The position numbers and the translations under genes are program-made. Under the pieces are notes generated by a model. The model had not been told where the DNA came from. It worked only from the letters and a program-made list of their open reading frames with translations, and made no database searches. From Bacteroidaceae bacterium (GTDB taxonomy: Bacteria; Bacteroidota; Bacteroidia; Bacteroidales; Bacteroidaceae), in contig JAFWAX010000002.1 of assembly GCA_017507385.1 (NCBI GenBank), forward strand, positions 1 through 64,000: a stretch of DNA of 64,000 nt. Reading direction: 5' to 3'. Below are positions 37,750 through 61,598 of this stretch, piece by piece. Positions within the stretch are counted from its first letter, which is position 1. Each line of letters starts with the position of its first letter.

Positions 37750-37948
37750 AGCAAATTCATGTCATCATCTCTTCCGCCCTGATGGCAGAGCGAAAGACAA
37801 TTGACCGTACCCCTCGGGTACGATGCATCGCACCCCTCGGGTCCGCCATGGCGGACCCGAGGGGTGCGGTTTTACAGAAAGGAGCATTCTTCTCTCTTTT
37901 TCAACATGAGTTCAAAATCGGGTACAAGCTAATTCGCCGAACTCGCTT
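37750..37948. mobile_element. MITE-like element, family B copy 1 (GC-rich palindrome)
   Basis: Non-coding element of about 200 bp that aligns in inverted orientation with 61379-61588. Shared landmarks: AAATTCATGTCATCAT near 37753, the small hairpin GTACCCCTCGGGTAC (37808-37822), a perfect 38-bp palindrome at 37830-37867 and TTTTACAGAAAGG after it. The right end AATTCGCCGAACTCGC (37931-37946) matches the family A terminal repeat; the left end is degenerate. The main hairpin followed by GGTTTTAC is oriented as a terminator for ftsZ. Confidence 0.75.
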
Positions 37949-37975
37949 GGTTTTGTGGTTTGCCCGACTGCAAAG

Positions 37976-38023
37976 TAAAAAAATGTGCCGACTCGGTCAG
38001 AATCACTTCTAATTGGTCGGCAC
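37976..38023 (-). terminator. Terminator of gyrB
   Basis: GTGCCGAC (37985-37992) pairs with GTCGGCAC (38016-38023). On the minus strand the stem is followed by ATTTTTTTA. It lies about 100 bp after the gyrB stop. The remaining 38024-38121 shows nothing else. Confidence 0.75.
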
Positions 38024-38121
38024 GAGAATATATGTAAGAATTGAATGAAATTTTCCAATTCAGAGATAAGTTTGCCGTAGAATGTTAATCGTTGAGTTGT
38101 GGCAAATTATCTTTCTGTCGT

Positions 38122-40098
38122 TTATGCGTCGATGTTCGCGTAAGTAGCGTTTCTCTCGATAAATTCTCGACGAGGTGCAACATCTTCTCCCATCAGCATG
38201 GAGAACGTGTAGTCAGCTTCTGCTGCATCGTTGATGGTCACTTGCTTCAGCAGGCGCGTTTCAGGGTTCATGGTGGTTTCCCAAAGGTGCTCAGGGTTCA
38301 TCTCGCCAAGACCTTTGTATCGCTGTACCTTGATTTTGTCTTCTTGTCCTTCGCCGTAGGTGTCGATGAAACGCTGTAAAGCTTCGTCGTCATAGCAATA
38401 TTCGCTAATTTTGCCCTTTGTGCACTTGTAGAGTGGTGGAGTGGCAATGTAGAGACGTCCATCACGTATGAGCTGTGGAAGGAAGCGGAAGAAGAGTGTC
38501 AGCAGCAGGGTGTCGATGTGTGAACCATCGACATCGGCATCGGTCATGATGATGGTCTTGTAGTAGCGCAACTTGTCATAGTTAGCTTCCTTCTGATCTT
38601 CGGGGTTGAGTCCGAATTTCACGCCTAATGCCTGGAAGATGTTATTTACTTCTTCATGTTCAAATGCCTGATGCCATTTCACGCGTTCTACGTTGAAAAT
38701 CTTACCGCGGATAGGCAGGATGGCTTGGAAGTGACGGTCGCGTCCTTGCTTGGCAGAACCGCCTGCGGAGTCTCCCTCGACAATGAACATCTCGCAGTTT
38801 GCGGGGTCTTTGTCTGAGCAGTCAGCAAGTTTGCCAGGCAGGCCACCTCCTGTCATCGGGTTCTTGCGCTGCACTTTCTCGCGTGCGGCACGAGCGGCAA
38901 CACGTGCTTCGGCTGCCAGCACCACCTTGTCGATGATCAGCTTGGCCTCTTTGGGGTGTTCCTCCAGATAGTATGTGAGTGCTTCGCCAACAGCTTGCTG
39001 AACAGCACCGGCTACCTCGCTATTTCCAAGCTTAGTCTTTGTCTGTCCCTCGAACTGTGGCTCTGCTACCTTCACGCTAACCACCGCTGTCAGACCCTCG
39101 CGGAAGTCTTCTCCGCTGATTTCAATCTTCTGCTTCTCCAGCTTCTCCGTGATCTTGTTGTCATCGGCATACTTCTTCAGTACGCGTGTCAAAGCTGTGC
39201 GGAAACCCTGAAGGTGTGTACCGCCTTCTATCGTGTTGATGTTGTTGACGTAAGAATGGATGTTCTCGCTATATGAAGTATTGTACATAATAGCGATTTC
39301 GATAGGAGTATCCTGCTTCTCTGTGTTCAGATAGATGACATCGTCAAACAGGCAGTTGCGCGTAGAGTCGATGTAGCGCACAAAGTCCTTCAAACCGCCC
39401 TCGCTGTAGAACACTTCTTCGCGCACACCTTCAATGCCGATTTCTGCATTCTTTTCCAGACGCATGTCTCTCAGCGTGATTTTGATGCCTGCATTCAAGT
39501 ATGCCAACTCACGCATACGGTTTGCGAGGATGTCATATTTGTATGTTGTTGTGATGAAGATGCTCTTGTCGGGCCAGAATTGCTGGCGTGTGCCTCTCAG
39601 CTCTGTCTCGCCAACCACCTTTACGTCATAGAGTGGCTTTCCGCAAGCGTATTCCTGCTGATAGATTTTTCCATCGCGGAACACCTGTGACATCATGTGA
39701 GAAGACAGCGCATTCACGCAGCTCACACCCACGCCGTGCAGACCGCCGGAAACTTTGTATGAGCCTTTGTCGAACTTGCCGCCGGCGTGCAGTACGGTCA
39801 TGACCACTTCGAGGGCACTGCGGTGCTCTTTCTCGTGCATATCTACAGGAATTCCTCGTCCGTCATCCTGCACGGTGATGGAATTGTCTTCGTTGATGGT
39901 TACTTCTATATGGGAGCAGTACCCAGCCAGCGCCTCGTCGATGGAGTTGTCCACAGTTTCATACACAAGGTGGTGGAGTCCTTTCTCGCTGATGTCTCCG
40001 ATGTACATTGCGGGGCGCTTTCTTACAGCCTCGAGACCTTCCAGAACTTGGATGTTGCTGGCCGAATAATTCGCTTCGTTGATTGTTGTTTCGTCCAT
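38122..40098 (-). CDS. gyrB: DNA gyrase subunit B
   Basis: The 658-residue ATPase subunit of gyrase introduces negative supercoils with GyrA. It has the GHKL ATPase N-terminus (EGLEAVRKRPAMYIGD, DDGRGIPVDMH, SGGLHGVGVSCVNALS), and the Toprim domain with VEGDSAGGSAKQGRD and MTDADVDGSHIDTLLL. The C-terminal QRYKGLGEMNPEHLWETTM is intact. Length is normal for the short GyrB type that lacks the large proteobacterial insert. Confidence 0.98.
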   Translation of the reverse strand: MDETTINEANYSASNIQVLEGLEAVRKRPAMYIGDISEKGLHHLVYETVDNSIDEALAGYCSHIEVTINEDNSITVQDDGRGIPVDMHEKEHRSALEVVMTVLHAGGKFDKGSYKVSGGLHGVGVSCVNALSSHMMSQVFRDGKIYQQEYACGKPLYDVKVVGETELRGTRQQFWPDKSIFITTTYKYDILANRMRELAYLNAGIKITLRDMRLEKNAEIGIEGVREEVFYSEGGLKDFVRYIDSTRNCLFDDVIYLNTEKQDTPIEIAIMYNTSYSENIHSYVNNINTIEGGTHLQGFRTALTRVLKKYADDNKITEKLEKQKIEISGEDFREGLTAVVSVKVAEPQFEGQTKTKLGNSEVAGAVQQAVGEALTYYLEEHPKEAKLIIDKVVLAAEARVAARAAREKVQRKNPMTGGGLPGKLADCSDKDPANCEMFIVEGDSAGGSAKQGRDRHFQAILPIRGKIFNVERVKWHQAFEHEEVNNIFQALGVKFGLNPEDQKEANYDKLRYYKTIIMTDADVDGSHIDTLLLTLFFRFLPQLIRDGRLYIATPPLYKCTKGKISEYCYDDEALQRFIDTYGEGQEDKIKVQRYKGLGEMNPEHLWETTMNPETRLLKQVTINDAAEADYTFSMLMGEDVAPRREFIERNATYANIDA

Positions 40099-40122
40099 TG
40101 TCGTATTCTCTTTTATACGTTA

Positions 40123-40130
40123 CAAAGTTA
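40123..40130 (-). promoter_or_regulatory. Putative -7 box of gyrB
   Basis: On the minus strand TAACTTTG fits TAnnTTTG, 25 bp before the gyrB ATG. No TTG is visible at the usual distance. Confidence 0.5.
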
Positions 40131-40225
40131 CGATTTTTTCTTTGAATTTAGAAATAAAACAAGGAGAAAATTCCCCTTTAGGGGAAAAAACTTTTCGCCC
40201 TTTGCGAGATAAGAGTTTGAGGGCA

Positions 40226-40259
40226 TGAAAAAAGTCAGAATCTTGCGGATTCTGACTTT
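40226..40259 (-). terminator. Terminator of rpsT
   Basis: A perfect 12-bp stem AAAGTCAGAATC (40231-40242) / 40248-40259 has a 5-nt loop; on the minus strand it runs into TTTTTTC. It lies about 55 bp after the rpsT stop and would isolate rpsT from gyrB. Confidence 0.85.
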
Positions 40260-40314
40260 AATCTTTCTATAAATAAGGCATTCTCTGATGCCGTATTGAT
40301 GCTGTTTTGTTTTC

Positions 40315-40569
40315 TTAAGCAAGCTTTGCAATGTGCTTTGCTGCGCCTGACTTGAGGTTTGCTGCCTTCTTCCAGTGGATGATGTTCTGCTTAGCCAGCT
40401 TGTCGAGCATCTTCTGGAGCTTTGGGAACATTGCTTGTGCTGTTTCCTTGTCCTTCTCGTTGCGGAGGTCGCGGAGGTAGTTGCGCATTGTCTTTGCGTA
40501 ATAGCGGTTGTGGAGTCTGCGCTTCTCGTTCTGGCGGATGCGCTTCAGACATGATTTGTGGTTTGCCAT
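40315..40569 (-). CDS. rpsT: 30S ribosomal protein S20
   Basis: The 84-residue basic product starts [20 protein letters not shown] and contains [13 protein letters not shown], matching S20, which binds 16S rRNA near helices h9 and h44. A long A-rich stretch precedes the ATG on the minus strand (a poly-A/C leader). The tRNA-Glu gene is 203 bp upstream on the same strand; no separate TAnnTTTG box is visible, so the two may be co-transcribed. Confidence 0.95.
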
Positions 40570-40659
40570 TTTTTTTGTTTTTTTTTGAAAGTGTTAATAA
40601 ATTCAGGAGTTCGATGTGGTATGGCCTTTGACCTCGCACCCTTCTCCTTCTAAGAGTTT

Positions 40660-40768
40660 TTTCTTAATTAATAATGACAATTAACAATTTTGCCATTCAA
40701 ATTGCTTGCCGTTAGGTACATCGCATTAGCCTAATTGTCAACTGTCAATTATTCATTGTCAATTGTTT
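40660..40768. repeat. AT-rich spacer with repeated (A)ATTGTCAA words
   Basis: The spacer between rpsT and tRNA-Glu contains several copies of TGTCAATT/AATTGACA on both strands, e.g. TAATTGTCAACTGTCAATTA (from 40732) and TTGTCAATTGTTT (from 40756). The same word occurs in the uxuA-uxuB gap. No gene is seen. Confidence 0.5.
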
Positions 40769-40771
40769 GGG

Positions 40772-40843
40772 TAGCCCGTAGGAGAGTCGAACTCCTCTTT
40801 AGAGAATGAAAATCTCTCGTCCTAACCGATAGACGAACGGGCC
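40772..40843 (-). tRNA. tRNA-Glu (anticodon TTC)
   Basis: On the minus strand the 72-nt gene folds as a cloverleaf: acceptor GGCCCGT pairs with ACGGGCT, the D-loop holds GGTTAGGA, the anticodon arm is AGAGA-TTTTCAT-TCTCT giving anticodon TTC, and the T-arm is GAGGAGTTCGACTCTCC. The discriminator base is A and CCA is not encoded. Confidence 0.95.
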
Positions 40844-40898
40844 AGCCTATGGAGAATTTCTCCGAGCGAAACAACCTTGTTTCGCTGTTTTGCGAGTG

Positions 40899-40928
40899 CA
40901 AAGGTATGAACTTTAATCGATACTGCAA
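40899..40928 (-). promoter_or_regulatory. Promoter of tRNA-Glu (and possibly rpsT)
   Basis: On the minus strand the -7 box TACCTTTG (40899-40906) has a TTG (40926-40928) exactly 19 nt upstream. The leader contains a perfect 9-bp inverted repeat GCGAAACAA / TTGTTTCGC (40866-40885). Confidence 0.75.
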
Positions 40929-41001
40929 AACTTTTTGTCCTTTTTTTTCGCTTTGGCGGCATTTTTTCGGGCTCCATCGTTTTCGAGTGCGGTTTTTTCC
41001 C

Positions 41002-41009
41002 TATTTTTG
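41002..41009 (+). promoter_or_regulatory. Putative -7 box of recO
   Basis: TATTTTTG fits TAnnTTTG and ends only 9 bp before the recO ATG, so the mRNA would be almost leaderless. No TTG is visible at the usual distance upstream. Confidence 0.5.
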
Positions 41010-41018
41010 TAGTCGATT

Positions 41019-41747
41019 ATGCAGGAAACATTTCGTGGCATCGTATTGCGCACGGTAAAATATGGCGACAGTTCGCTGATTGTCGATCTCTTTACCGAAA
41101 GTCGTGGGCGTCTGTCGTTCATGGTCTCTGTTTTGCGCACCAAGCGTTCTGTGCGCAACGTCTCCTTCTGGCAGCCCCTTTCCATGGTCGAGTTTAGTGC
41201 TGAAGTGCGTCAGGGTAGTGGAAAACTGCCGCGTCCGGTCGATGTGCGCACATATTATAATTATATAGACCTCCCTTTTTCGCCTGTCAAAGCGACCCTC
41301 GCCCTGTTCTTGTCCGAGTTTCTCTGTGCCGCCCTGCGCGAGGAGAAAGACAACTTGCCCCTTTATCGTTACATCGAGTCTTCTCTCCAATGGCTCGACA
41401 TCGTCGATTCGTCAGCGGCTGTAGCCAATTTCCATTTGGCATTTCTCATGCACCTCAGCCGATTCATTGGCATCTATCCCAACCTGGAGTGTCCCGACCG
41501 TTACTTCGACCTCCTCTCTGGCGCTTACTGCGACCGTCAGCCTTCTCATTCCCATTTTTTGCAGCAGCAGGAGGCTGCGGCATTACCCACTCTCTTCCGC
41601 ATGGACTATCCCGTCATGCGCTTTTTCCGCTTCTCGCGCCGTGAGCGTATGCGCATTCTTCAGGTGCTCAACACCTATTACCGGCTGCACGTACCGAATT
41701 TCCCCGAATTGAAATCCTTGTCCGTCTTGCAGGAACTTTATTCTTGA
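41019..41747 (+). CDS. recO: DNA repair protein RecO
   Basis: The 242-residue product has the RecO N-terminal OB fold (FRGIVLRTVKYGDSSLIVDL then FTESRGRLSFMV) and a helical C-terminal part with FHLAFLMHLSRFIGIYPNL. RecO anneals single strands and helps load RecA at gaps with RecR. The four-cysteine zinc site of some RecO proteins is not obvious. It converges with the next gene and no terminator is visible in the 88-bp gap. Confidence 0.93.
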   Translation: MQETFRGIVLRTVKYGDSSLIVDLFTESRGRLSFMVSVLRTKRSVRNVSFWQPLSMVEFSAEVRQGSGKLPRPVDVRTYYNYIDLPFSPVKATLALFLSEFLCAALREEKDNLPLYRYIESSLQWLDIVDSSAAVANFHLAFLMHLSRFIGIYPNLECPDRYFDLLSGAYCDRQPSHSHFLQQQEAAALPTLFRMDYPVMRFFRFSRRERMRILQVLNTYYRLHVPNFPELKSLSVLQELYS

Positions 41748-41835
41748 ATGGAACTTTCTCTAAACAGTTGTTGGCTGAGCCGTTTTCTTGTTCCGTATAA
41801 CTTATCTTCCGTACTTCGGCTTAACTCCACCTCTC

Positions 41836-44800
41836 TCACTCATTCACCAGCACCTTTCCATCCTCCGTCATTCCCTCTGCACTGATGTACATCTCCTGAC
41901 AGGTCGAGTTGTTGTAGAACTCCACCTTTGCCTTTCCCTGCGCATCCGTCTTCACATCGGGATTCCAGTAGATGGTGCGGCGGAAGTCCGCCATGGGCGG
42001 GATGACGCTGTAGTCTTCCATCTGGAACGTGGAGGGCTTGTTGAACCCCTGAAAGTAAGTGCGGCGAAGCCCTTTCTGGCTCTCTGCTGCAAATGTTTTA
42101 TGCGTATAAAGATAGACTCGTACTGCTCCGTCTTTCTCTTTCATGCTATAAGGAACAATGTACAGATTCTTGATTTCACTCATGTTGACGGGAAAGAAAT
42201 TGTCTCCCGTCGCTCCAGCATCACTGGTAATGGCCGCAAACATCTCGCCTTCTGTTTCTTCAGATTTTGACGGAACTGTTCCGAGAATCCTTTTGATGGT
42301 GAGCATCCATGTTTCGGAAAAGTCCATTGCTGCAGATGACTCTCCATTGTCAACAATCCATTTAATGGGCCGATGATCATACGAAAGACTTCCGCCCCAA
42401 TACCATTCCTTATAATTTTGGTTTTCATTTTCCATGTCAAGCGTGTCAACAGGCGGCATCGGAAGATTTTTGCATTCAGGATTGTTGAACAGCGCATTCT
42501 TCTTGCATAAGAACTCAAAGATGGTCGGTTCTGCCTCTCCACGGTCAAGGATAGCATCCAGTTCCTTATCGATGTCATAGTGATGGGTGGCGTACTGTCT
42601 CCCCCATGCCTCGTTCTTGTACTTCCAGTCGTCGTTGGTGAAGTACCTCCTTTTCGCCTGCACTGTCACGTTCTGGAGCACATGGTCTTTCTCCGTAATG
42701 GGGATGAATTCATCTTCTTCGGAGAGTCCTTCGAAAGGGTTCTTTGCAAAAGCATTCGCTTTCAAAGGAAGCTGCATCTTTGATTCCATCGGAGTGATGT
42801 ATCTCGCTGCTGGAGAGAACTGCCTGTCAATGCCCACATAGTAGGTTTTTCGTTTCTCTTTGCCTTTCTTGTTTTGCTTGCTCGTGTAGATTTGCATTTT
42901 CCATTCCCCCTCCACAAAAGGAAGCATGAAAGCATAGTTGCCTAAAGAGTCTGTGCGAGTGGTGCCCGAAAGACTCTGCCCCTCATGGTTGTAGAGGAAC
43001 ACTTGAAGGTTCACGTCATTTACGGGGTTTCGCTTTCGGTACACATTCAGCTTGCCGAACACATGGAACTTGTCCTCGACGGGTTGTATCTTCTGAAACT
43101 TCTTCTGCCCTGTCATCAGTTCCCAGTCATATCGTCTCCACCCTTGTGTGAGCATCAGCAGGTCGGCCGCCTGTCGGTGCTCCGCGTCATCTGCTTCAAA
43201 GTAATAGCCGGCATTGTGGATATATCCCCGCACTTCTGAGGATAACAGCATCCACGTCTGCATGTTTCCTTGCTTTCCATTGGTCATGGTCTGCGCATCC
43301 ATGGCCGAGAACGAGAGATGAGCATTAGGCTGCGCCTGCAGCTCCAGCTCCACCTTGCCGCATGGCTTCAGCCGCTGCGTCTTTGCCACGATGCGGATGC
43401 TGTCTGAGCTATCCTGTTCTGGACAGATGAAGAAGAGCCTTTCTGCAAGTATTCGTCCGCTGCTGTTGAAGAACGTCAGCTGGCTCACACCTTTCTTTTG
43501 CTTCTGCCTGTCAAGAGAAATCTTCACAAGCGGAGCTGCTGTAATGGTGTCACAGTAGGTGATGTTTCCACCGTTCATCAGTGCATACCCCAACAGACTT
43601 CCACAGATTCCCTCCGTGCACTGCAGTGTGATACCTATACTGTCATTCACGGCATCAAAAGCCAGGGCGCATCCTTCTTCTCGCACTTGAGGGAGAGGGA
43701 ATTCCTGTACCTTATCTGCCAGATTTCTCATCTGCATGACGAGCGTGCTGCTGTCGGCTATAATCTCAAAAAGGCCTCTTCCTAATGTGTCGGTCGCCAC
43801 CGTCGCCACCACGTCTCCACGCTCATTCAGCACGAAGCCCTCGCCTTCATAAGGATTGCCGTTGTCATCCACAGCCAGCATAGCCACTCGGCACTTCTTT
43901 CCCTTGACGAGGCTTCCCCCTTCTGGGTAGAACTGCACGCTGATGGTCTTCATCAGGTCGCTCGTATAGATACCCTCGTCAATTGCCTTTTGGTATAAGG
44001 AATCGGACTGGTTGCGGTTGTTGGGGTCACGGTGTCTGTAGAGACGAGAATTGATGGTAGGATTGTCGTAATCGCCTTCGGTCTCAGGTTTCGTGAAGAT
44101 GGGGAACACTCTCGAGAAGAGCGCGTTCACTCCCCAGTTGGTCATGTATCGGGTGTATGCTCTGACCTCGTAGAATCCCGAACCCAGAAGCGTGTCAAGC
44201 TTCATGTCGCCGTGCGCCAGACCCAACGAGTCAATGGGGTATTTGTGGGTTTTGATGACGTCGCCGCTGGGATTGAGCAGTTCTACATATAGCACCTTGC
44301 TCAAATTGGTGGGGCGGCTGTTGTCGGTCCTCGTCACGTATGCCTTGAACCACATCGTCTCGTTCTCGAAGTATCCCGTGTTGTCGAAGTGCAGATACAC
44401 CTTCTCCTGCGGAACAACCCTGTTGAAGTTCATCGCCTTCTGAAGGTATTCTTTGACAGAAAGCAATCGTGGCTCATCATCGCGTTCTGTGCTTGTTGGC
44501 AAGTGGCGGATGACTGCTTCTTCATCAGCAGTCCGTTTGATGATGCTCTGCTCTTTGATAAGCCCTGCTGGCGACTGTGCCTTGTTGATGGCAGCAAGGA
44601 TATTGCCTCGAATGGGAACAGAATCTTTCAACGGCAGCTGATAGTCTTCTATATTAAGGAGAACAGATGTTACATTCAGTTCTCCTGCAAAAAACTCATA
44701 ATACATGTCCGAAACTTCTGTAAACCCGTTTCTGTCTCTATAATTGACATGTATTTTGAATGTTCCGGGAATCTGTTCATGCTTCACTACATTTTCATAT

Positions 44801-45657: not shown

Positions 45658-45776
45658 GTTGAGGTGAAGCAAACTTGATGCAAATTCGCCATCTGTGCAC
45701 GAGAAGAGATATGGCACAATATCATAAAAAATAATATTTTAATGGCCTTCATTAGCTTTTTATTTTTAATTATCGA

Positions 45777-45806
45777 CAAAAGTAGTAATTTTTTGCAAAA
45801 TGGCAA
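45777..45806 (-). promoter_or_regulatory. Promoter of the large exported protein gene
   Basis: On the minus strand TACTTTTG (45777-45784) is the -7 box and TTG (45804-45806) lies exactly 19 nt upstream. The leader is about 110 nt. Confidence 0.75.
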
Positions 45807-45997
45807 TGATTTCGTGGTGGTTTTTTAGGGGTTGTGTTGCATGTTGAGATATTGATTATAATGTGATTAAGCCGTTGCTATGTTACGTGGTTAAAAAATA
45901 AGTGAGAGCACCCCTGTTTTTTACCTCCCCCTATTGGCAGTTGTTAACATTTTTTGCTACGTTTTAATCTGCTCAAAAACACAGCATTTTATGCCTT

Positions 45998-46072
45998 AAA
46001 AGGGGTGAGACTCTCACCTGTACCATAGGTGAGAGTCTTACCTATACCATAGATGAGACTCTTACCCCTTTT
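45998..46072. repeat. Three near-palindromes GGTGAGACTCTCACC at 24-nt period
   Basis: Copies at 46004-46018, 46028-46042 (GGTGAGAGTCTTACC) and 46052-46066 (GATGAGACTCTTACC), with linkers TGTACCATA / TATACCATA. The outer edges AAAAGGGGTGAG and CTTACCCCTTTT are themselves inverted, so the block is palindromic as a whole. It lies in the divergent gap between the large exported protein and the Crp/Fnr gene. A related array is at 63423-63483. Confidence 0.85.
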
Positions 46073-46202
46073 GAGGTACTGAAAGCGCCTAAAATGGCGG
46101 TACTTTTTAAGGGAAGTTTTTCAAGGTGTTTTGTCGGTTTTTTTTGTTTGCCTGAAAACTGTTTTTTCTATCAAAACTTATCCTTGTAAAATGATTTTTT
46201 TG

Positions 46203-46210
46203 TAATTTTG
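46203..46210 (+). promoter_or_regulatory. Putative -7 box of the Crp/Fnr gene
   Basis: TAATTTTG fits TAnnTTTG but ends 5 bp before the first ATG; a TTG at 46184-46186 is 16 nt upstream. The mRNA would be near-leaderless, or translation starts further in. Confidence 0.4.
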
Positions 46211-46215
46211 TAGCC

Positions 46216-50516: not shown

Positions 50517-50530
50517 AAACCAAAACTGAT

Positions 50531-51679
50531 ATGAAAAAATGTAAAATTGCCATCTTGAGCTTGATGGCGTGTGCAGCTGCTGTTATGCAGGCAAAAACAG
50601 ACGATGTGGTGGTTCTTGGTAAGGGTACCGTGTACCTCTCTAATTTTGAAATCAAAAAAGATGATGCGACAGGAGAAGAATACGCATTGTGGCCCAGTAC
50701 GGAAAATGCGTGGATAACGGACACTTGTTGGGCAGAAAATGTTCCCGTGCTCAGCGATTCTGAAGCAAAAGCCATCAACATTGCGTTATCCTTCGAATCC
50801 TCTACATACACACCCTTGACTTGGATGCTGACAGAGGAGGAAGATGAAACGGTTCTTCACTGCTATTTGAAAATGCCTCCTTGTGATGTCTTGACCAATT
50901 TGTGGCTTGCGTCAGAAGAAACGGCAATACTCGATAGGGAGACAGGTGTACAGTATCGGGCAAAGCGTACTGTACCAGAGTGCTGGAAGAAGCATTTGGG
51001 CGTGAAGGCGCCTAAAGGTTCTGTTCTTGACCTTAAGATTTATTTCCCTCGTTTGCCTAAGAGCACTCGTAATATCGCAATCTATGGTGTGCCAGTCTGG
51101 AATATGCGTGGTCTTGAAGTCAAGCTGAAAAGTCGAGGCAAAAATGCTGCAGAAAAGTATGATGAAGTTCCTGAATTTAAGACTCCGCGTCTTGTCAAGG
51201 CGGAAGGCAACTACAACAAAGATGACCATAACACTTGGGCGGTTTATACGGATCCTCATCTGATTAAACCTGTGAAAGGGGAGAATGTGATGGCTCTCTG
51301 GCGCACTCCGGAAGCAACCTATCTTGCTATGGCCATAGAACAAAACTGGATGCGTGAGTATTATGGCTTCCATCCAGGTACGCAGCTGGTAGCTAATGGA
51401 GGGGGAGGAATATTCGAGCTTAAAGAAGTCCTCGGCTTGCCTAAAGATCATATATTCTGGATGGAGGGCAACTCAGGTGACTATCTCGCCTACGTCTGTG
51501 TATTTGAGCCGCTGCCTCTTGATGTGGACATCATCCATTTTTTCGAACCAGATGGAGAGCCTTTTGAAATGTGGGGCGCTAACTGGAAAGGTGAGAATAT
51601 TATGAATCTTGATGTGGATGAGCTTCGTGCCAATCAGCATCTGTTTGAATACAAGATGCGAAAGGTGGTGGATAAGTGA
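50531..51679 (+). CDS. Secreted hypothetical protein of the sigma operon
   Basis: The 382-residue product has a signal peptide (MKKCKIAILSLMACAAAVMQA) and no recognised domain. It is rich in beta-strand-like, Trp-containing segments (WPSTENAWITDTCWAEN, YFPRLPKSTRNIAIYG). It lies 14 bp after the putative anti-sigma gene and is probably in its operon. The frame opens at 50474 inside that gene, but the signal peptide fixes the start at 50531. The MITE-like element begins at its stop codon. Confidence 0.7.
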   Translation: MKKCKIAILSLMACAAAVMQAKTDDVVVLGKGTVYLSNFEIKKDDATGEEYALWPSTENAWITDTCWAENVPVLSDSEAKAINIALSFESSTYTPLTWMLTEEEDETVLHCYLKMPPCDVLTNLWLASEETAILDRETGVQYRAKRTVPECWKKHLGVKAPKGSVLDLKIYFPRLPKSTRNIAIYGVPVWNMRGLEVKLKSRGKNAAEKYDEVPEFKTPRLVKAEGNYNKDDHNTWAVYTDPHLIKPVKGENVMALWRTPEATYLAMAIEQNWMREYYGFHPGTQLVANGGGGIFELKEVLGLPKDHIFWMEGNSGDYLAYVCVFEPLPLDVDIIHFFEPDGEPFEMWGANWKGENIMNLDVDELRANQHLFEYKMRKVVDK

Positions 51680-51874
51680 CGTGAGTGCGACGAATTGAAA
51701 AGCTGCATGAATCGACTTAAACAAAAATAAGATTCACGTTGTTTTAGCATGCACCGTGCGCGTAATATTTAAAGCGCCGTGCACGAAATATTTCGCAGGC
51801 GGTGTTCTCAATATGATGCGCACGGTGAGCACGTAGGGAGCGGCATGCTTTATGCTAATTCGTCGAACTCACGT
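51679..51874. mobile_element. MITE-like element, family A copy 2, near-perfect terminal repeats
   Basis: Non-coding, 196 bp. The ends are ACGTGAGTGCGACGAATT (51679-51696) and AATTCGTCGAACTCACGT (51857-51874), matching in 17 of 18 positions as inverted repeats. The centre contains the family A core (CACCGTGCGCGTAATATTTA at 51752, GAAATATTTC, GCGCACGGTG near 51818). It is the reverse complement of the 29.6 kb copy along its length. The left end overlaps the last base of the upstream stop codon. No clear target duplication is seen. Confidence 0.8.
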
Positions 51875-51930
51875 TGAGTAAGATCAGAACAAGCAAATAA
51901 TAATGAAGAATAGATGAATTGTTAATGGTT

Positions 51931-51973: not shown

Positions 51974-51990
51974 TTGGTTGAGGTAGTCTA

Positions 51991-52040
51991 TTGATGCAGC
52001 CATGGCAGGGAAAACATCTTCCCTGCCATGGCTGCATCAA
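51991..52040. terminator. Perfect 22-bp inverted repeat after uxuB
   Basis: TTGATGCAGCCATGGCAGGG-AA (51991-52012) pairs perfectly with 52019-52040 around a 6-nt loop. It lies 17 bp after the uxuB stop. There is no T tract on either strand, so it may work as an mRNA-stabilising end or a rho-dependent stop rather than an intrinsic terminator. Confidence 0.6.
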
Positions 52041-52056
52041 TATTGTAAGTGTTTTG

Positions 52057-53643: not shown

Positions 53644-53649
53644 AATGTT

Positions 53650-53682
53650 CAATTGTCAATTTCTAATTCTCAATTGTCAATT
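53650..53682. repeat. Direct repeat CAATTGTCAATT in the uxuA-uxuB gap
   Basis: The 12-bp palindrome-like word CAATTGTCAATT occurs twice (53650-53661, 53671-53682), 9 bp apart; the second overlaps the uxuA stop codon. The word recurs in the rpsT-tRNA spacer. Confidence 0.6.
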
Positions 53683-54934: not shown

Positions 54935-55022
54935 ATTGTTAAGTTTTTAAGTTCTTGATTTTGCGATTTTTCAAGTCTCTTATCTTTGAGCTTCTGAATG
55001 TTGCTCAATGTGTAGATTGGTG

Positions 55023-55030
55023 CAAAGTTA
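55023..55030 (-). promoter_or_regulatory. Putative -7 box of uxuAB
   Basis: On the minus strand TAACTTTG fits TAnnTTTG, about 88 bp before the uxuA ATG; no TTG at the usual spacing is seen. The leader shows nothing else recognisable. Confidence 0.5.
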
Positions 55031-55177
55031 GAAAAAAAAAGCATAATCCATTTGTTTCTCTGTATCATTTTTCTTCAATGGCGTAACCAAAACGTGCTTT
55101 CTTGCCTTTCCATCGTGCTTTTTCTGCCATTCTCTATTTTGTTGAGATGGTCAAGATGAATAGGGGCACATGGCTAT

Positions 55178-55225
55178 AAAATCGTACCCCTCGATGTCTG
55201 ATTGGACAGAATCGAGGGGCGCGAT
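55178..55225 (-). terminator. Terminator of the GH127 gene (family-B-like hairpin)
   Basis: ATCGTACCCCTCGAT (55181-55195) pairs with ATCGAGGGGCGCGAT (55211-55225) with one mismatch region; on the minus strand the stem is followed by TTTTATAG. The sequence CGnCCCCTCG...CGAGGGG and the TTTTA tail resemble the family B palindromes, but no terminal repeats are present. Confidence 0.75.
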
Positions 55226-55277
55226 GATGAGATAAGAGGAACAATCTCTTTATTTGTTCTTTATTTGCAAAGTCTTC

Positions 55278-57590
55278 TCATTTGCAAAGTCTTACTTCGC
55301 AGATGCGAGGCGTTTCTCGGTCTGCTTCTGCTGCAATCTCTAATGTGACTTTTTCTTCCTTGATGTTGGTTGGAAAATCGATCATAGCCATGCCCTCACG
55401 ATTGAGGCGGATGGAACTGATTTCTGTTCCGTTGATGGAAACGCGTATGGATTGGCGGTCGCCTGTGAATCCTTTTATATGGATGGTTTTCGCATCGGCT
55501 GCCTTCATCTGATAAGAGAATGAACCTCGTGTGCGACGCCAGCTGACACCGTTGTCGCTGCCATTCCAGCTATTAGTGGAAGCAAAGAAATGGTCGCTTT
55601 CTGACTGCTGCTCGCCACAGTAAACCTTGTCTGTTGTCTGTGCTTCAAGAGCCATGCGCTCTTTCTCGGCTTCTGCTAATTTTTGCTGTTTTTCATTCCA
55701 TTCAGCAGAAGAATAAAGTGGGAAATAGATTTGGTATCTGCATTCGTAAAGTTTGTAGAATGGAACAAGTTTCATGTTCTCGAACTGTGGAAGCGTAAGG
55801 CCTGACAATTCAAATGTTTGTGGACGGCCAGCAACTGGCTTCAAGTGTGAGAGAATGGTCGATGCGTCGCCAATAATGCCCGGCATTTGGTCTAATGGAA
55901 TCTTTGGGCCATTGGCGATGTGTCCGCCGCGGCTGTCGTCTGCATACATGCCATCCTGATTGTTTTTGCCTGTTTCGGCAGCCAGCACGATTGGACCATA
56001 GAGGAAACTGTATTGTGGCTTTCCGTCGGGAGTCTGCATGGCTGTCAAGTGCATGGGGAGGTCAACATGCAGCTTGTCGCCGTCTTTCCAGGTGCGATTG
56101 ATGACAAGGTACTCGTCCTCGAACTGGGCCTCGATTGCTTCGTTGTTGACCTTGGCGCTGATGTTTTTGCACCACCATGGGCGACGAACCTTGATAGCCA
56201 TCTTCTTGGCTTTCTTTGTGCTGATAGTGAGGTCGGTAGATGGCTCATCGGGGAAGCGGTTCTCTTGTTTCACTGTGATGCCTTCCCATGTAAGAGTGGA
56301 AGGGATGAAGAGGTTGACAATCAAATCATTGCCTTGATGCGCATAAATCATTTCGCCATATCGGGCTGGATTCTCGATTCCAGTGCCGACACAGCACCAC
56401 ATGCAAGTTTGTGGCTGGGAATAAACGCGGTAGTGTCCTGAGCGCATTGGGGTGAAATAGACGAAACCACCTTGTACAGGGTTGAAAATAGACAGGATGT
56501 GGTTGTAAAGCGCACGTTCATAGTAGTCAATATACTCCATGCTTGCAGATGTCTGGTAGAGCATCTTGGTGAGTCTCAGCATATTGTATGTATTGCAGCT
56601 TTCTGGACCTTGTTCGCTTTCGAGCAAGCCCGTGAAATCGTTGGTTGGGTTGAAGTGTTCTCTTACTGAGTTGCCGCCGATGCTGACGCTGCGTTGCCCA
56701 ATGACCACTTCCCAGAAGAATGCTGCTGCTTTGTCCCAGTCGGCACGGCCTTCGAGGTCGGCGATGCGCTTGTAGCCAATCACTTTGGGAATCTGGGTGT
56801 TGGCATGCTTTCCTGTCAGGTTGTCCTCGCTGCGCATCAGAGGCTGCAATAGTTGCTGGTCGCTGAAACGGTGAGCAAGTTTCAGGTATTTCTTGTCACC
56901 TGTGATTTCAGCCACGTCTGCAAAAGTTTCGTTCAAGCCTCCATGTTCGCTTCGGAGCATATCCTGCATCTGTTCTTCGCTTAATGGGCTGACAAGTTCA
57001 GCCATCCAGTCTGTCAGTTTGATGAGCATCTCTTTGGCATCCTTTCGCCCGCACATCAGCCACGCATCGCGCAATCCTGCGTAGGTCTTGTGGATGTTGT
57101 AAAGCGGAACCCATCGGTCGTTCAAACCGAATGATGAGGCGCGGATGTTGCCTTCTGATATTTCTTTCCACATTTGTGGACCATTGGGAACGCCTGCCAA
57201 ATAGCCGTTTCCGCTGGCATCTTGGCAACGCTTCATTTCGGCGAGCACATAGTCCATGCGCGTCTCGATTTCTTTGTTTCCGGTAGCGGCATACATGTAG
57301 GCGAGGGCGGAGAGATAGTGGCCGCCGATGTGCCCGTCGAGTCCGGTGTTTTCCCAGTTGGTGTAATTCTCTGCTTTGGGTTCCAAGCCAGCTCCTTTCA
57401 GGAATGGAGCTAAAAGACGGTCGGCATCGAGCCCCAGCAGGTAGCTGATGTCTGCCTGCTGATTTTTCTGGAATTGGCTGTCGCCCAGCCGCACATTTGA
57501 GATGTGGAATGTTTCAACTTTGGGCTGTAGTTGCGCGTGGGTTGTCTGGAAAGCTGCAGCTAAAGCCAAGCAAATGAGGATTTTTTTCAT
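55278..57590 (-). CDS. GH127-family glycosidase (beta-L-arabinofuranosidase type)
   Basis: The 770-residue product starts with a signal peptide (MKKILICLALAAAFQTTHA). The catalytic domain holds the residues matching the zinc site of HypBA1 (Glu338, Cys340, Cys417, Cys418): Glu330 and Cys332 in GPESCNTYNML, and Cys399-Cys400 in MWCCVGTG. C-terminal beta domains follow (about 560-770). The product likely removes beta-linked L-arabinofuranose from plant or glycoprotein glycans. It is monocistronic with its own terminator, divergent from the GH97 gene. Confidence 0.92.
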   Translation of the reverse strand: MKKILICLALAAAFQTTHAQLQPKVETFHISNVRLGDSQFQKNQQADISYLLGLDADRLLAPFLKGAGLEPKAENYTNWENTGLDGHIGGHYLSALAYMYAATGNKEIETRMDYVLAEMKRCQDASGNGYLAGVPNGPQMWKEISEGNIRASSFGLNDRWVPLYNIHKTYAGLRDAWLMCGRKDAKEMLIKLTDWMAELVSPLSEEQMQDMLRSEHGGLNETFADVAEITGDKKYLKLAHRFSDQQLLQPLMRSEDNLTGKHANTQIPKVIGYKRIADLEGRADWDKAAAFFWEVVIGQRSVSIGGNSVREHFNPTNDFTGLLESEQGPESCNTYNMLRLTKMLYQTSASMEYIDYYERALYNHILSIFNPVQGGFVYFTPMRSGHYRVYSQPQTCMWCCVGTGIENPARYGEMIYAHQGNDLIVNLFIPSTLTWEGITVKQENRFPDEPSTDLTISTKKAKKMAIKVRRPWWCKNISAKVNNEAIEAQFEDEYLVINRTWKDGDKLHVDLPMHLTAMQTPDGKPQYSFLYGPIVLAAETGKNNQDGMYADDSRGGHIANGPKIPLDQMPGIIGDASTILSHLKPVAGRPQTFELSGLTLPQFENMKLVPFYKLYECRYQIYFPLYSSAEWNEKQQKLAEAEKERMALEAQTTDKVYCGEQQSESDHFFASTNSWNGSDNGVSWRRTRGSFSYQMKAADAKTIHIKGFTGDRQSIRVSINGTEISSIRLNREGMAMIDFPTNIKEEKVTLEIAAEADRETPRICEVRLCK

Positions 57591-57650
57591 TGTTATAATT
57601 AATTAATGTGTGTTCTGACGGAAGTTTTTCCTGGTGTTATCATTTCGGAT

Positions 57651-57658
57651 GCAAAGAA
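57651..57658 (-). promoter_or_regulatory. Putative -7 box of the GH127 gene
   Basis: On the minus strand TTTCTTTG is one base from TAnnTTTG, about 60 bp before the ATG. The 344-bp divergent gap 57591-57934 holds this, the GH97 promoter and otherwise AT-rich spacer. Confidence 0.35.
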
Positions 57659-57878
57659 AGTTCTTTATTGCCGATTATGCAAATTTTTGCAGTTCATTTT
57701 TTTTAGAATAGGTTTCTTATTTATTTTTCCCCGATTTTTAGAGGAGAAGGTCTGTGTGGGACGTTTTGTGAACATAATATTGTATGACACTGTTGTTGCA
57801 ATAGCTATTTTGTTGGTTTTTATATGGCAAAGTACGTGGAATGTTACGAAAAATGAAGTTTGTGTTACACCAAAGGAA

Positions 57879-57907
57879 TTGTTTGTGAAAATTTATGAGT
57901 AATTTTG
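57879..57907 (+). promoter_or_regulatory. Promoter of the GH97 gene
   Basis: TTG (57879-57881) is 18 nt upstream of TAATTTTG (57900-57907). The ATG at 57935 follows after 27 bp. Confidence 0.6.
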
Positions 57908-57934
57908 CATGGCAATTTTTTACTTAACAGCAAT

Positions 57935-59872
57935 ATGAAAAAAGTTATTTTAGGAATTCTAATGTTATTGTGTGGCTGGACTTCTGTTTCGGCTGCTGAA
58001 AAGTCTTTTAGTAGTCCCGATGGTCAGTTGACCGTGTGGGTTGATGATGTGAATGGCGCTCCTGCTTATCGTGTTATGTTAGGTGAGACTGAATTCATCG
58101 AACGTTCTCCTCTGGGTGTTAAAACCAATATCGGTGATTTCACGCAGAACCTCACTTTGACAGGTTGCGAGATTAAAAAGGTGCAGGAACAGTACCAGCT
58201 GAGCACCATCAAGCAGAGCACAGTTAATTATGAAGCAACCGAAGCTGTGTGCAGCTTCGAGCAGCAGGGGCGCAAGGTGATAGATGTGGTTTTTCGTGTG
58301 AGCAACCGCGACGTGGCATACAGCTACACCATCTATCCTAAGGGTGGTACGCTTGTTTGTGTTGTGGATAGCGAGGCCAGTGGATTTCAGCTCCCATCTG
58401 GTACAACCACTTTCTTGTGCCCACAGTCAAGACCAATGGGTGGATTTGCCCGTACGGCTCCAAGTTACGAAACCAGCTATTCGCTTGACGACCAGATGGG
58501 AAAGAATGGCTGGGGCGAAGGCTATTCATTCCCTTGTCTTTTCCGTGTAGGCGAAAAGGGATGGGTGCTTATTAGCGAAACAGGCGTGGACGGAAACTAT
58601 GTGGCAAGCCGCTTGCTCAATGTGAAGGACGGGCTCTATCGCATAGGCTTCCCGCAGCAGGGCGAGTGCAACGGCTGGGGTTCTACTTCTGCTTCTGTGG
58701 CACTTCCTTGCCAGACTCCTTGGCGCACAATCACTATCGGCACAACATTGGCTAACATTGTAGAAACAACAGTTCCTTTCGACTTGGTGTCTCAGAAGTA
58801 TAAGGCATCACAGGAGTACATTCATGGCAAGGGCTCCTGGAGTTGGATTATCGGTATGGATGCAAGCTGCAACTTCGATGAACAAAAGCGCTACATCGAT
58901 TTCTCTGCTGCAATGGGTTATCAGAGTGTTCTGATTGATGCTCTTTGGGATGTGCAGATTGGTCGCGAGAAGATTGCTGAATTGGCAGCATACGGAAAGT
59001 CTAAGGGTGTAGGTCTCTACCTTTGGTACAATTCTAACGGCTCATGGAATGATGCGCCTCAGTCTCCAAAGGGCAAGATGGACAAGAGCCACGCACGTCG
59101 TGAGGAGATGGCATGGATGAAGAGCATCGGCATTCGAGGCATCAAGGTCGATTTCTTCGGCGGCGACAAGCAGAACATGATGCAGCTCTACGAAGACATT
59201 CTTTCTGACGCTAACGACTACGGAATCTTGGTGATCTTCCATGGCTGCACATTGCCTCGCGGATGGGAAAGAATGTATCCTAACTATGCAGCAAGTGAAG
59301 CTGTTCTTGCGTCTGAAAACTTGCATTTTGGACAGGGCGCTTGTGATGCAGAAGCATTTAATGCAACAATCCACGCATTCGTCCGCAACACTGTCGGTGC
59401 AATGGACTTTGGCGGCTCAACGCTTAATAAGTTCTACAACGCCAATAACAGCCGTGGAAGCCGTCGCGTAACATCTGACGTTTATGCGCTGGCTACTGCA
59501 GTTCTCTTCCAGAGCCCTGTACAGCATTTCGCTCTTGCGCCAAACAACCTGACAGATGCGCCAGCATGGGCTATCGATTTCATGAAGGAAGTGCCTACAA
59601 AGTGGGATGAGGTGAAGTACATCGACGGCTATCCTGGCAAGTATGTCATCATGGCACGTCGCAGTGGCGACAAGTGGTATGTTGTAGGTGTGAATGCAGA
59701 GAAGACTCCGTTGAAGACCAAGATTGAACTGCCTATGTTTGAGAAGGGCACAGAGCTTCAGGTTTACAGTGATGATGCAGAGCTCAATGGCAGCCTCACA
59801 ACTGTGAAGCAAAAGAAGCAGATGGCTATCACAATCCCAACCAATGGCGGCGTGGTGATTGTGAACAAGTAA
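57935..59872 (+). CDS. GH97-family glycosidase, probably retaining alpha-galactosidase type
   Basis: The 645-residue product has a signal peptide (MKKVILGILMLLCGWTSVSA), an N-terminal beta-sandwich (about 25-275), a TIM barrel (about 275-560) and a small C-terminal beta domain. Asp406 in IKVDFFGG and Glu461 in ASENLHF have the same 55-residue spacing as the nucleophile and acid/base recalled for the retaining enzyme BtGH97b (Asp415/Glu470). That favours a retaining alpha-galactosidase over SusB-type inverting alpha-glucosidase (inference). Start fixed at the signal peptide, 10 codons inside the open frame. Confidence 0.9.
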   Translation: MKKVILGILMLLCGWTSVSAAEKSFSSPDGQLTVWVDDVNGAPAYRVMLGETEFIERSPLGVKTNIGDFTQNLTLTGCEIKKVQEQYQLSTIKQSTVNYEATEAVCSFEQQGRKVIDVVFRVSNRDVAYSYTIYPKGGTLVCVVDSEASGFQLPSGTTTFLCPQSRPMGGFARTAPSYETSYSLDDQMGKNGWGEGYSFPCLFRVGEKGWVLISETGVDGNYVASRLLNVKDGLYRIGFPQQGECNGWGSTSASVALPCQTPWRTITIGTTLANIVETTVPFDLVSQKYKASQEYIHGKGSWSWIIGMDASCNFDEQKRYIDFSAAMGYQSVLIDALWDVQIGREKIAELAAYGKSKGVGLYLWYNSNGSWNDAPQSPKGKMDKSHARREEMAWMKSIGIRGIKVDFFGGDKQNMMQLYEDILSDANDYGILVIFHGCTLPRGWERMYPNYAASEAVLASENLHFGQGACDAEAFNATIHAFVRNTVGAMDFGGSTLNKFYNANNSRGSRRVTSDVYALATAVLFQSPVQHFALAPNNLTDAPAWAIDFMKEVPTKWDEVKYIDGYPGKYVIMARRSGDKWYVVGVNAEKTPLKTKIELPMFEKGTELQVYSDDAELNGSLTTVKQKKQMAITIPTNGGVVIVNK

Positions 59873-59890
59873 GACTCTGTTTTTCGTTAC

Positions 59891-59930
59891 AAGAGTGGAA
59901 TATCTGTTGGGATATGTCCACTCTTTTTTA
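59891..59930 (+). terminator. Terminator of the GH97 gene
   Basis: AAGAGTGGA (59891-59899) pairs with TCCACTCTT (59917-59925), followed by TTTTTTA. The stretch 59931-60100 holds no recognised feature. Confidence 0.9.
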
Positions 59931-60103
59931 TTTTATCTTCTATAGGTATGCACAAGGCAAAGGTGGAGACGTAGGAAAAACCACGCAATTTCTTTTGCTT
60001 CTATATTCCAGATTTTTGTAGTATTGTGGCCGTTTGCAGGCAAGATGGACAGATGTAATTCATGAAGTTTGAAAGGCTCGAAATCAGAAAGATGCGTTTT
60101 TAT

Positions 60104-60134
60104 TTGGTAGGATGGCAAAAACTTTGTACCTTTG
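60104..60134 (+). promoter_or_regulatory. Promoter of rplS
   Basis: TTG (60104-60106) is 20 nt upstream of the -7 box TACCTTTG (60127-60134). The leader to the rplS ATG is about 120 nt. Confidence 0.7.
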
Positions 60135-60140
60135 CAACCG

Positions 60141-60262
60141 ATTTTGGCGAAGCCGCTGTCTGATAGGGATAGAGCCCAAGGAGTTGAGACAATGAGTTTC
60201 AGTATTCTGAAAAGGAGAATGCTTCGCTGTAACTCTTTAATTAACAATAAATCAAACCGATT
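60141..60262 (+). promoter_or_regulatory. Structured rplS leader, possible autoregulatory region
   Basis: GCGAAGC (60147-60153) can pair with GCTTCGC (60221-60227), GAGTT (60181-60185) with AACTC (60231-60235), and TTTCAG/CTGAAA form a small hairpin (60197-60212). The first two pairings cross, giving a pseudoknot or alternative folds. Ribosomal protein leaders often bind the protein they encode, so L19 feedback is possible (inference). Confidence 0.4.
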
Positions 60263-60631
60263 ATGGCAGTAGATTTAATTAAAGTGGCTCAGGAAGCAAT
60301 GCAGACTTCAGAGCCAAAGCAGTTCCCAGACTTTAAGGCTGGTGATACTGTAACAGTAGCTTACAAGATTATCGAAGGTACTAAGGAGCGTATCCAGCTC
60401 TACCGCGGTGTTGTCATCAAGATTGCAGGCGAAAAGAGCAAGAGACGTTTCACAGTTCGCAAGATGTCTGGAACAGTAGGTGTAGAGCGTATTTTCCCAA
60501 TCGACTCACCAAACATCGATTCAATCGAGGTGAACAAGGTAGGTAAGGTACGTCGCGCTAAGCTTTATTACCTCCGCAAGCTTACTGGTAAGAAGGCTCG
60601 TATCAAGGAAAAGCTTGTTAGAAAAGCTTAA
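60263..60631 (+). CDS. rplS: 50S ribosomal protein L19
   Basis: The 122-residue product contains the L19 core [26 protein letters not shown]-like [35 protein letters not shown] and the basic tail [19 protein letters not shown]19 lies at the interface of the two ribosomal subunits. It has its own promoter with a structured leader. Confidence 0.97.
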
Positions 60632-60739
60632 GAACCCCTTCTTGCAAAAGTGGAATAGTGAAAGATCTAAGTTTCTCCTTCTTCTAAAGGCTTGTAATAC
60701 AGATTTTTCACTTTTCTTTTTTGTTTCTCACTTTTTGTT

Positions 60740-60747
60740 TATCTTTG
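60740..60747 (+). promoter_or_regulatory. Putative -7 box of the MaoC-like gene
   Basis: TATCTTTG fits TAnnTTTG, 23 bp before the ATG; a TTG at 60721-60723 is 16 nt upstream. An AAGGAG (60758-60763) just before the ATG is a plausible ribosome-binding site. Confidence 0.5.
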
Positions 60748-60770
60748 CAAAAAATCTAAGGAGCATAAAA

Positions 60771-61235
60771 ATGGAAAAACTTATAGTAAACTCGTATGAA
60801 GAGTTCGCATCTCATCTTGGAGAGCAGATAGGACAGAGTGAATGGCTCGAAGTATCGCAGGAACGCATCAATCTTTTTGCAGATGCAACGCTCGACCATC
60901 AGTGGATACACGTAGATACAGAGCGTGCAAAGGTGGAAAGTCCGTACAAGTCAACGATAGCGCATGGATACCTCACACTCTCGCTCTTGCCTCATCTGTG
61001 GCAAGAAATCATTCAGGTCAACAATGTGAGAATGCTTGTCAACTACGGCATGGACCAGATGAAGTTTGGCCAGCCTGTGCTTTCAGGTCAGCGTGTCCGT
61101 CTCACAGCAAGTCTCCATGACATCTCTAATATCCGTGGTATTTGCAAAGCACAGATCAAGTTCAAGCTTGAGATTGAGAATGAGAGGAAGCAGGCTCTTG
61201 AAGGACTTGCCACATTCTTGTATTATTTCGAATAG
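60771..61235 (+). CDS. MaoC-like (R)-specific enoyl-CoA hydratase family protein
   Basis: The 154-residue hot-dog-fold protein has the MaoC signature: FADATLDHQWIHVDTERAKV followed by YKSTIAHGYLTLSLLPHL. In the family Asp and His of this 'D...H' pair are catalytic for hydration of enoyl-CoA. The substrate is unknown. The open frame extends upstream into the end of rplS, but the promoter and RBS place the start at 60771. Confidence 0.9.
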   Translation: MEKLIVNSYEEFASHLGEQIGQSEWLEVSQERINLFADATLDHQWIHVDTERAKVESPYKSTIAHGYLTLSLLPHLWQEIIQVNNVRMLVNYGMDQMKFGQPVLSGQRVRLTASLHDISNIRGICKAQIKFKLEIENERKQALEGLATFLYYFE

Positions 61236-61261
61236 AGAATACTTATTCCATCAATATATGT

Positions 61262-61297
61262 GCAGGAGGCTTCATGTGAGAGGCCTCCTGCTTTATT
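61262..61297 (+). terminator. Terminator of the MaoC-like gene
   Basis: GCAGGAGGC (61262-61270) pairs with the complementary run ending at 61291 (GCCTCCTGC), followed by TTTATTTG. 61298-61368 shows nothing else. Confidence 0.85.
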
Positions 61298-61368
61298 TGT
61301 GTGTGGAATTTCTTGCAAACCGTCCCCTCTGGTGCACTATGGCATGCTAAAAGGGAGCGGTTAATGGA

Positions 61369-61598
61369 TTGTTCGTTAACGTGAGTTTGGCCAATTCGCA
61401 TCTATTCAAATTCGCAAATTTATATTGAAAAAAGAAAGAATATGCCTTTCTGTAAAATCGGACCCCTCGGGTGCGCCATGGCGTACCCGAGGGGTCCGAT
61501 GCGCCGTACCCGAGGGGTACGGTCAATTATTTGCTTATTATCCTACAATCGCAGCTGTAAAAATGATGACATGAATTTCGTCGAACTCTTGTTCGTTA
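61369..61598. mobile_element. MITE-like element, family B copy 2, with 10-bp direct repeats
   Basis: Non-coding, about 210 bp (61379-61588). The left end ACGTGAGTTTGGCCAATT and right end AATTTCGTCGAACTC are inverted relatives of the family A ends. TTGTTCGTTA occurs immediately outside both ends (61369-61378 and 61589-61598), a likely target-site duplication. The centre is a 44-bp palindrome (61457-61500) plus the smaller GTACCC hairpin. The element is the reverse complement of 37750-37948. On the minus strand the main hairpin is followed by ATTTTAC, oriented as a terminator for the FadL gene. Confidence 0.8.

Follow-up and report, generated by a model that had tools for sequence, protein, structure and literature searches.

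The first 64,000 nucleotides (forward strand) of contig JAFWAX010000002.1 from the Bacteroidaceae bacterium assembly GCA_017507385.1, hereafter the window, carry two families of short repetitive elements, A and B, which share a terminal repeat of 18 bp and have different palindromic centres. The preferred reading of both families is that of miniature inverted-repeat transposable elements (MITEs) of the IS982 family. The centre of family B is an independent repeat that is present within more than one shell (the element sequence around the centre), and the modularity of these elements therefore runs both ways. An earlier note on this DNA had described a modular MITE system with common ends and exchangeable centres; that description was correct as far as it went and is incomplete, as the B array also changes carriers.

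The home genome of the window (G000) is a metagenome-assembled genome of 2.38 Mb, 78% complete, and was compared within a genus set of 45 genomes that includes it, many of them incomplete; multi-copy repeats are frequently lost during assembly. The G000 sequence examined for cores, arrays and end pairs amounts to 372 kb, much of it picked for its proximity to these elements. The closest relative by the searches made is the sister species G028, to which some G000 contigs match at 98–99% and others at 78–91%, a mixture that may reflect mis-binning or recent exchange. Genes in G000 and its relatives were called with a purpose-written, codon-usage gene caller. The B loci of the relatives were fetched with a three-unit query and are a subset of the copies there, from which shorter arrays may be missing.

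The end motif ACGTGAGTTCGACGAATT, allowing up to three mismatches, was found in the window at 29569, 29750 (minus strand), 37931 (minus strand), 51679, 51857 (minus strand), 61379 and 61575 (minus strand), which compares with a mean of 0.05 matches over 100 shuffles. In G000 the reversed control gives 2 matches and the 18-bp end itself 95 (53+42). Separate consensus sequences for the 22 A and the nine B elements are identical over 16–18 bp at all four ends, the left ends being concordant to about ACGTGAGTTCGACGAATTAGC. At the centre of A lies a 76-bp palindrome built of CACCG boxes; the B centre is an array of 63 bp made up of three GC-rich hairpin units. These comparisons confirm the statement of the earlier note that A and B share their terminal repeat and differ in their centre, and extend it to an A copy (29569-29767) outside the range that it covered (37750..61598).

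The proposed search for paired ends and classification of centres were also carried out, on the 372 kb of G000 sequence, and the relation between the A and B ends is beyond chance. From 53 end pairs, 35 elements were kept; of the 18 dropped, 12 were 23 bp long, as such pairs arise because the end motif is itself nearly palindromic, and six overlapped a kept pair or had a weak second end. The 35 dispersed elements comprise 22 of family A, nine of family B, one fused A+B element (C53:47704-48054) and three with neither an A core nor a B unit, two of which are 48 and 67 bp. All but one of the A elements (21/22) measure 172–199 bp, the remaining one being interrupted and 353 bp long, and the nine B elements 146–237 bp, with typical lengths of about 196 bp for A and 214 bp for B. 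Five of the B elements carry three units and four carry one. Short length (below about 300 bp), the lack of a transposase gene and multiple dispersed copies are the properties of a MITE. Searches gave 81 alignment rows with an A copy and 78 with a B copy as query, palindromic queries yielding two rows at many places; the 372 kb hold 53 A cores and, counting those with two units as well as three, 38 B arrays.

Further sequences occur within elements of this kind. Hairpins of GTGCCCCACACCGATT form a third type of centre between IS982-type ends at L103 (C61:5653) and L098 (C58:72494), in one of which they are joined with B sequence. Two other repeated sequences, GATACTGTTTCGAAAAGTGTGTC and ATTGGTGTCCGCTAAAA, which are probably insertion sequences, break up A or B elements at the G000 contig ends C45, C47 and C16 and at C78 ~74846.

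In other species of the genus, the same ends occur in pairs about 1 kb apart and enclose transposases. Six such insertion sequence (IS) copies of the parental type, 1026–1051 bp long and with ends at 0–3 mismatches, are present in G006, G008, G012, G019, G035 and G044. Two of their transposases (311 and 304 residues) were scanned and score 258 and 260 bits with the NCBIfam profile transpos_IS982 (cutoff 130); both also match Pfam PF13612. Membership of the IS982 family is by profile for these two copies and by protein match for all six. An IS982 transposase match was found in 29 of the 45 genomes, G000 included, and the end motif at two mismatches in 34. In named genomes the exact 18-mer is present in at least 119 stretches; among the 80 matches listed, 77 are Bacteroidales by name and three are cyanobacteria. 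The proposed search for a transposase with matching ends thus led to IS982-family elements in other species of the genus. Because the A and B ends are shared beyond chance and same-ended IS982 elements exist in the genus, one transposase type mobilising different centres is the best reading, and the shared ends and target size suggest that the same transposase may serve both the IS and the MITEs. Further short elements that combine these ends with other interiors lie at L149, L150 and L151 (G008 and G002).

Direct repeats of at least 5 bp border nine of the 35 elements (2000 permutations: mean 2.0, maximum 6) and repeats of at least 6 bp border seven (mean 1.0, maximum 5). In the window, TTCGTTA at 61372-61378 and 61592-61598 flanks the B copy at 61379. 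The IS copy L140 is flanked on both sides by TAAGATA, a clear 7-bp duplication, and the elements show a flank preference for TTA before and TA after. For three of the four window elements the site is empty in G028, with no element in the aligned sequence: the gap is 66 bp against 307 bp at the A copy 29569, 164 bp against 384 bp at the A copy 51679, and 80 bp against 328 bp at the B copy 37753. At the B copy 61379 the upstream gene and a hairpin are kept in G028 and similarity then stops, leaving no clean empty site.

The B array consists of three 17-bp units, CGNACCCCTCGGGTNCG, each with 7-bp stems and a CTC or GAG loop, and its geometry is nearly invariant. Spacers between units are always 6 nt (70/70 in G000, 39/39 in G028, 33/33 in G015, 8/8 in G016 and 36/36 in G035), in a count that admitted gaps of up to 12. 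The order is F-F-R or its reverse complement in 32/34 arrays of G000, 20/20 of G028, 18/19 of G015, 12/16 of G016 and 14/18 of G035. Clusters of three units occur 33 times in G000, of two units four times and of one unit seven times; one G015 array has four.

The array is found both in different carriers and alone. One of the 20 arrays fetched from G028 sits in a B shell, while at least five belong to another carrier, about 300 bp long, whose borders lack IS982-type ends. In the G000 sequence examined, 17/38 B arrays and 13/53 A cores lack an end motif in the 130 bp around them when four mismatches are allowed (18/2392 random spots have one by the same rule), and five of 32 three-unit arrays have no shell trace on either side. 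The cores are 86–100% like the reference, whereas shell similarity is 94% at most and falls to background level. G015 and G035 bear arrays and contain the end motif (two mismatches) only twice and once, respectively. Six other genomes contain weaker matches to the A-type core, and most of the 11 such loci inspected by eye show similar box arrays. The exact two-unit pattern had no match in the viral contigs searched.

The fixed design of the array raises the possibility that a DNA- or RNA-binding protein uses it as a functional site and that selection keeps it at gene 3′ ends, the MITEs having done no more than aid its spread. Besides the 6-nt spacer throughout five genomes and the F-F-R order of most arrays, the persistence of the core while the shells decay points this way, as do five orthologous G015/G016 sites (L505/L420, non-orthologous at the array, is left out) at which the arrays are 95–100% identical and the flanks 72–96%. 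Those are only five pairs with flanks that are partly coding, and concerted evolution could mimic constraint. The array was also found in just 14 of the 45 genomes, G000 included, at the threshold used, and its unit sequence depends on the species (e.g. GTC/GAC loops in G035), which is unlike an essential site. A role of this kind is therefore regarded as possible but somewhat doubtful. A broader proposal, that the 63-bp array represents a new class of repeat without a transposase of its own, conserved in geometry more than in sequence, kept by a protein and riding unrelated carriers (IS982-type MITEs in one species, the ~300-bp repeat in another), with the arrays of 22–24-bp pitch described below as sister classes, is speculative and rather unlikely as a whole.

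Short palindromic units in many intergenic, 3′-biased copies that outlast their shells also recall repetitive extragenic palindromes (REP) and bacterial interspersed mosaic elements (BIME), for which a RAYT (Y1 tyrosine) transposase would be the means of spread, the IS982 shells being incidental. The unit consensus shows no closing GTAG or CGTC tag by eye, in G000 or its relatives. Among the 45 genomes, many incomplete, Y1_Tnp does not track the arrays: no match was found in the array-rich G000, G007, G028, G035, G041 and G043, matches are weak in G015 and G030, and they are strong in G016 and in the array-poor G006. A REP/RAYT identity was rejected on these grounds as very improbable.

The elements lie preferentially near the ends of genes. 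Gaps between G000 genes that hold an element, core or end are convergent in 37 cases, tandem in 40 and divergent in seven, while the other gaps in the same stretches number 7, 49 and 14, respectively. Convergent and divergent gaps are expected to be about equal in number on a chromosome, and the 37:7 is accordingly read as a bias (binomial 5e-6). This ratio of convergent to divergent gaps was used in place of a baseline from the unoccupied gaps, because gaps beside a convergent gap cannot themselves be convergent. The 60 arrays fetched from four relatives lie in 19 convergent, 30 tandem and four divergent gaps, with seven at contig or stretch edges. Within tandem gaps the array is nearer the upstream stop in 27/30 cases in the relatives, and in G000 the same is true of 10/12 B arrays and 16/22 A cores. 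This proximity to 3′ ends fits terminators, and also fits selection against landing in promoters.

The earlier note had proposed that the elements supply ready-made terminators, the B hairpin and its TTTTA tail ending the transcript of the preceding gene. Apart from their position, the hairpins are strong on either strand (minimum free energy −53 to −60 kcal/mol, z −7.5 to −9.2), and a T-run (TTT within 8 nt) follows 27/32 arrays in G000 and is found on the other side of 9/32. The T-run is not favoured in four other species: it follows 7/20 arrays in G028, 8/18 in G015, 5/12 in G016 and 6/14 in G035, and stands on the other side of 12, 8, 6 and 4, respectively. Both window B copies do face the preceding gene as claimed, but their neighbours are convergent and a hairpin there faces a gene whichever way it points, so that their orientation is uninformative. 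The informative cases are the tandem gaps, and there orientation is random, an outcome that the earlier note had itself named as refuting its proposal. By T-run, the 12 G000 arrays divide into four with the upstream gene, four against, two with a T-run on both sides and two with neither; by unit order, the 11 full G000 arrays divide into five with and six against, and the 30 arrays of the relatives into 14 with, 12 against and four of other order (pooled orientation for home and relatives 18:16, p 0.86). The hairpin of an intrinsic terminator is thus present, but not a U-tract oriented with the upstream gene.

The genes beside the two window copies also have hairpins of their own. That of ftsZ (−24 kcal/mol) precedes the B element and is retained at the B-free site of G028. 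The gene ending at 61235 has one nearer its stop than the B element, and a similar hairpin is retained in G028. Scans for terminators gave 24 sites (shuffle mean 16.8, sd 3.8) and 10 sites (mean 9.4, sd 3.9); the ftsZ hairpin at 37669-37707 is missing from the list of the pattern scan, and at the two B copies of the window the simple scan placed its score on the strand away from the TTTTA side. With random orientation, a T-run preference confined to G000 and neighbouring hairpins already in place, a directional terminator role was rejected as improbable. The 3′-end placement would most likely come from selection against landing in promoters, with no directional terminator role needed.

The reading that in all likelihood accounts for these observations treats A and B as non-autonomous MITEs on which an IS982-family transposase would act in trans, recognising the terminal repeat of about 18 bp and duplicating about 5–8 bp of AT-rich target. 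The hairpin arrays, which the genus also carries independently, would have become enclosed between IS982-type ends, and the composites would then have multiplied, shrunk by deletion and sometimes fused, their 3′ bias arising through avoidance of promoters. An IS982 transposase of this type may be presumed to act on both families, and the arrays were probably captured by the MITEs rather than inserted into them. Several observations weigh against this account. The target-site duplications expected of an IS982-derived MITE are present in a subset only, the borders of 26 of the 35 paired elements showing no direct repeat as long as 5 bp. G000, 78% complete and liable to have lost multi-copy repeats in assembly, yielded no intact IS982 transposase but only two relics of 39 and 59 residues, which weakens the case for present mobility; the earlier suggestion of one transposase mobilising different hairpins is supported by the relatives, while the home genome holds relics only. 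By eye, the shells agree with the IS copies inspected over no more than about 20 bp, so the shells need not derive from them. Many of the cores without ends retain traces of decayed shells, and not every core was therefore always free.

The features of the window are listed in Table 1. An Rfam scan of the whole window returned a single tRNA and no match at the elements. The hairpin at 55178-55225 consists, on the minus strand, of a ACCCCTCG stem and a GATTTTATAG tail. It had been described as a B-like hairpin without ends that terminates the GH127 gene; the B-like stem and tail 3′ of the gene and the absence of ends are as stated, but a unit scan allowing two mismatches found no B unit there. 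A perfect 24-bp inverted repeat (TATTGATGCAGCCATGGCAGGGAA) at 51989-52042, between convergent genes, adjoins an A element.

Table 1 Elements, cores, hairpins and arrays in the window.
Feature	Position	Strand	Remarks
Family A MITE, 199 bp	29569..29767	-	Core 29616-29691; direct repeat TTAATTA at both borders
Family B MITE	37753..37948	-	Sole recognisable end 37931-37948, other eroded; three-unit array 37806-37868
Family A MITE, 196 bp	51679..51874	+	Core 51752-51827
Family B MITE, 214 bp	61379..61592	+	Three-unit array 61459-61521
A core, 76-bp palindrome without IS982 ends	8741..8816		Terminator-like hairpin lies upstream
Degenerate B-like hairpin without ends	55178..55225	-	3′ of gene 55278-57590
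Terminator-like hairpin after ftsZ	37669..37707	+	Upstream of B element; kept in G028
Terminator-like hairpin of plus-strand gene ending 61235	61262..61291	+	Upstream of B element; similar one in G028
Three-unit palindrome array, GGTGAGACTCTCACC type, 24-bp pitch	46004..46066		Separate from MITEs
Second GGTGAGACTCTCACC-type array, 23-bp pitch	63422..63481		Separate from MITEs

Other short arrays were noted alongside these. A third instance of the GGTGAGACTCTCACC-type palindrome array, with three copies at 23–24-bp pitch, lies at L398 1611-1671 (G028). Arrays of two to three units at 22–23-bp pitch, unrelated in sequence, are present in G000 at C58 ~72801, C45 ~209, C34 ~7682, C60 ~79585 and C48 ~6688, and at L503 1434. 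A general 23-bp pitch in intergenic DNA was considered and set aside, and is a lead only: a lag scan of 63 kb of intergenic sequence, with A, B and whole elements masked, showed no clear excess (four segments at 23 and two at 24, with five at 21, four at 30 and seven at 14). A near-perfect palindrome of ~50 bp with ACGTGGGTTCGA-type ends was seen in the right flank of L389 (G028) and in a matching flank in G000 (C73 ~48450); its ends resemble the MITE239 end listed in PMC4596501.

Cardinium belongs to the Bacteroidota. Its element MITECca01 is about 240 bp long and, like A and B, has ends similar to those of an IS982-family parent; it is present in 169 copies, mostly intergenic or within other mobile elements (PMC9769881). 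Its parent is present in the same genome, unlike the situation in G000, and a second similar MITE is described there, but the part of that source consulted mentions no independent hairpin array (PMC9769881). In Porphyromonas gingivalis, MITE239 (end ACGTGAGTTCGATATAAAGGAA), MITE700 (ends ACGTCATTCGA / TCGAACTCACGT) and ISPg3 (ends ACGTCAGTTCGA / TCGAACTGACGT) are alike at their ends and dissimilar in the remainder, with copy numbers around 10–20 (PMC4596501). Their ends are of the ACGTGAGTTCGA type, close to those of A and B, but no 63-bp or 76-bp arrays appear for MITE239 or MITE700 in the parts of the paper examined, and ISPg3 is termed an IS5-family element there whereas the two same-ended transposases scanned here score as IS982 (PMC4596501). 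Given the same-ended MITEs of P. gingivalis (PMC4596501) and the IS982-derived MITE of Cardinium (PMC9769881), the shells are of a known kind.

Other systems resemble the arrangement of A and B in part. The P. gingivalis elements BrickBuilt and MITE464/PgRS have nearly identical ends around different repeat arrays, as A and B do, and BrickBuilt is intergenic with repeats of 23 nt, which equals the pitch of the B array; their ends, however, are of the GAGACC type matched to ISPg1/ISPg9, unlike those of A and B, and they hold 1 to 22.8 direct repeats rather than a palindrome array of three units (PMC4596501). REP elements of the GTAG and CGTC families are likewise short, dispersed, intergenic palindromes, and the CGTC families are, like the B array, apparently without a dedicated transposase (PMC3733652); the B array differs in having no GTAG or CGTC tag, in its three units with 6-nt spacers and in its occurrence inside IS982-type shells. 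Literature searches, none of them by array sequence, gave no recognised description of a 63-bp three-unit array or of one array in different carriers.

A claim of terminator function cannot be built on the orientation of an element that lies between convergent genes. The two-way modularity seen here, with one pair of ends around different arrays and one array in different carriers and alone, provides a natural system for how MITEs acquire their interiors and for whether a host-useful array spreads by changing vehicles.

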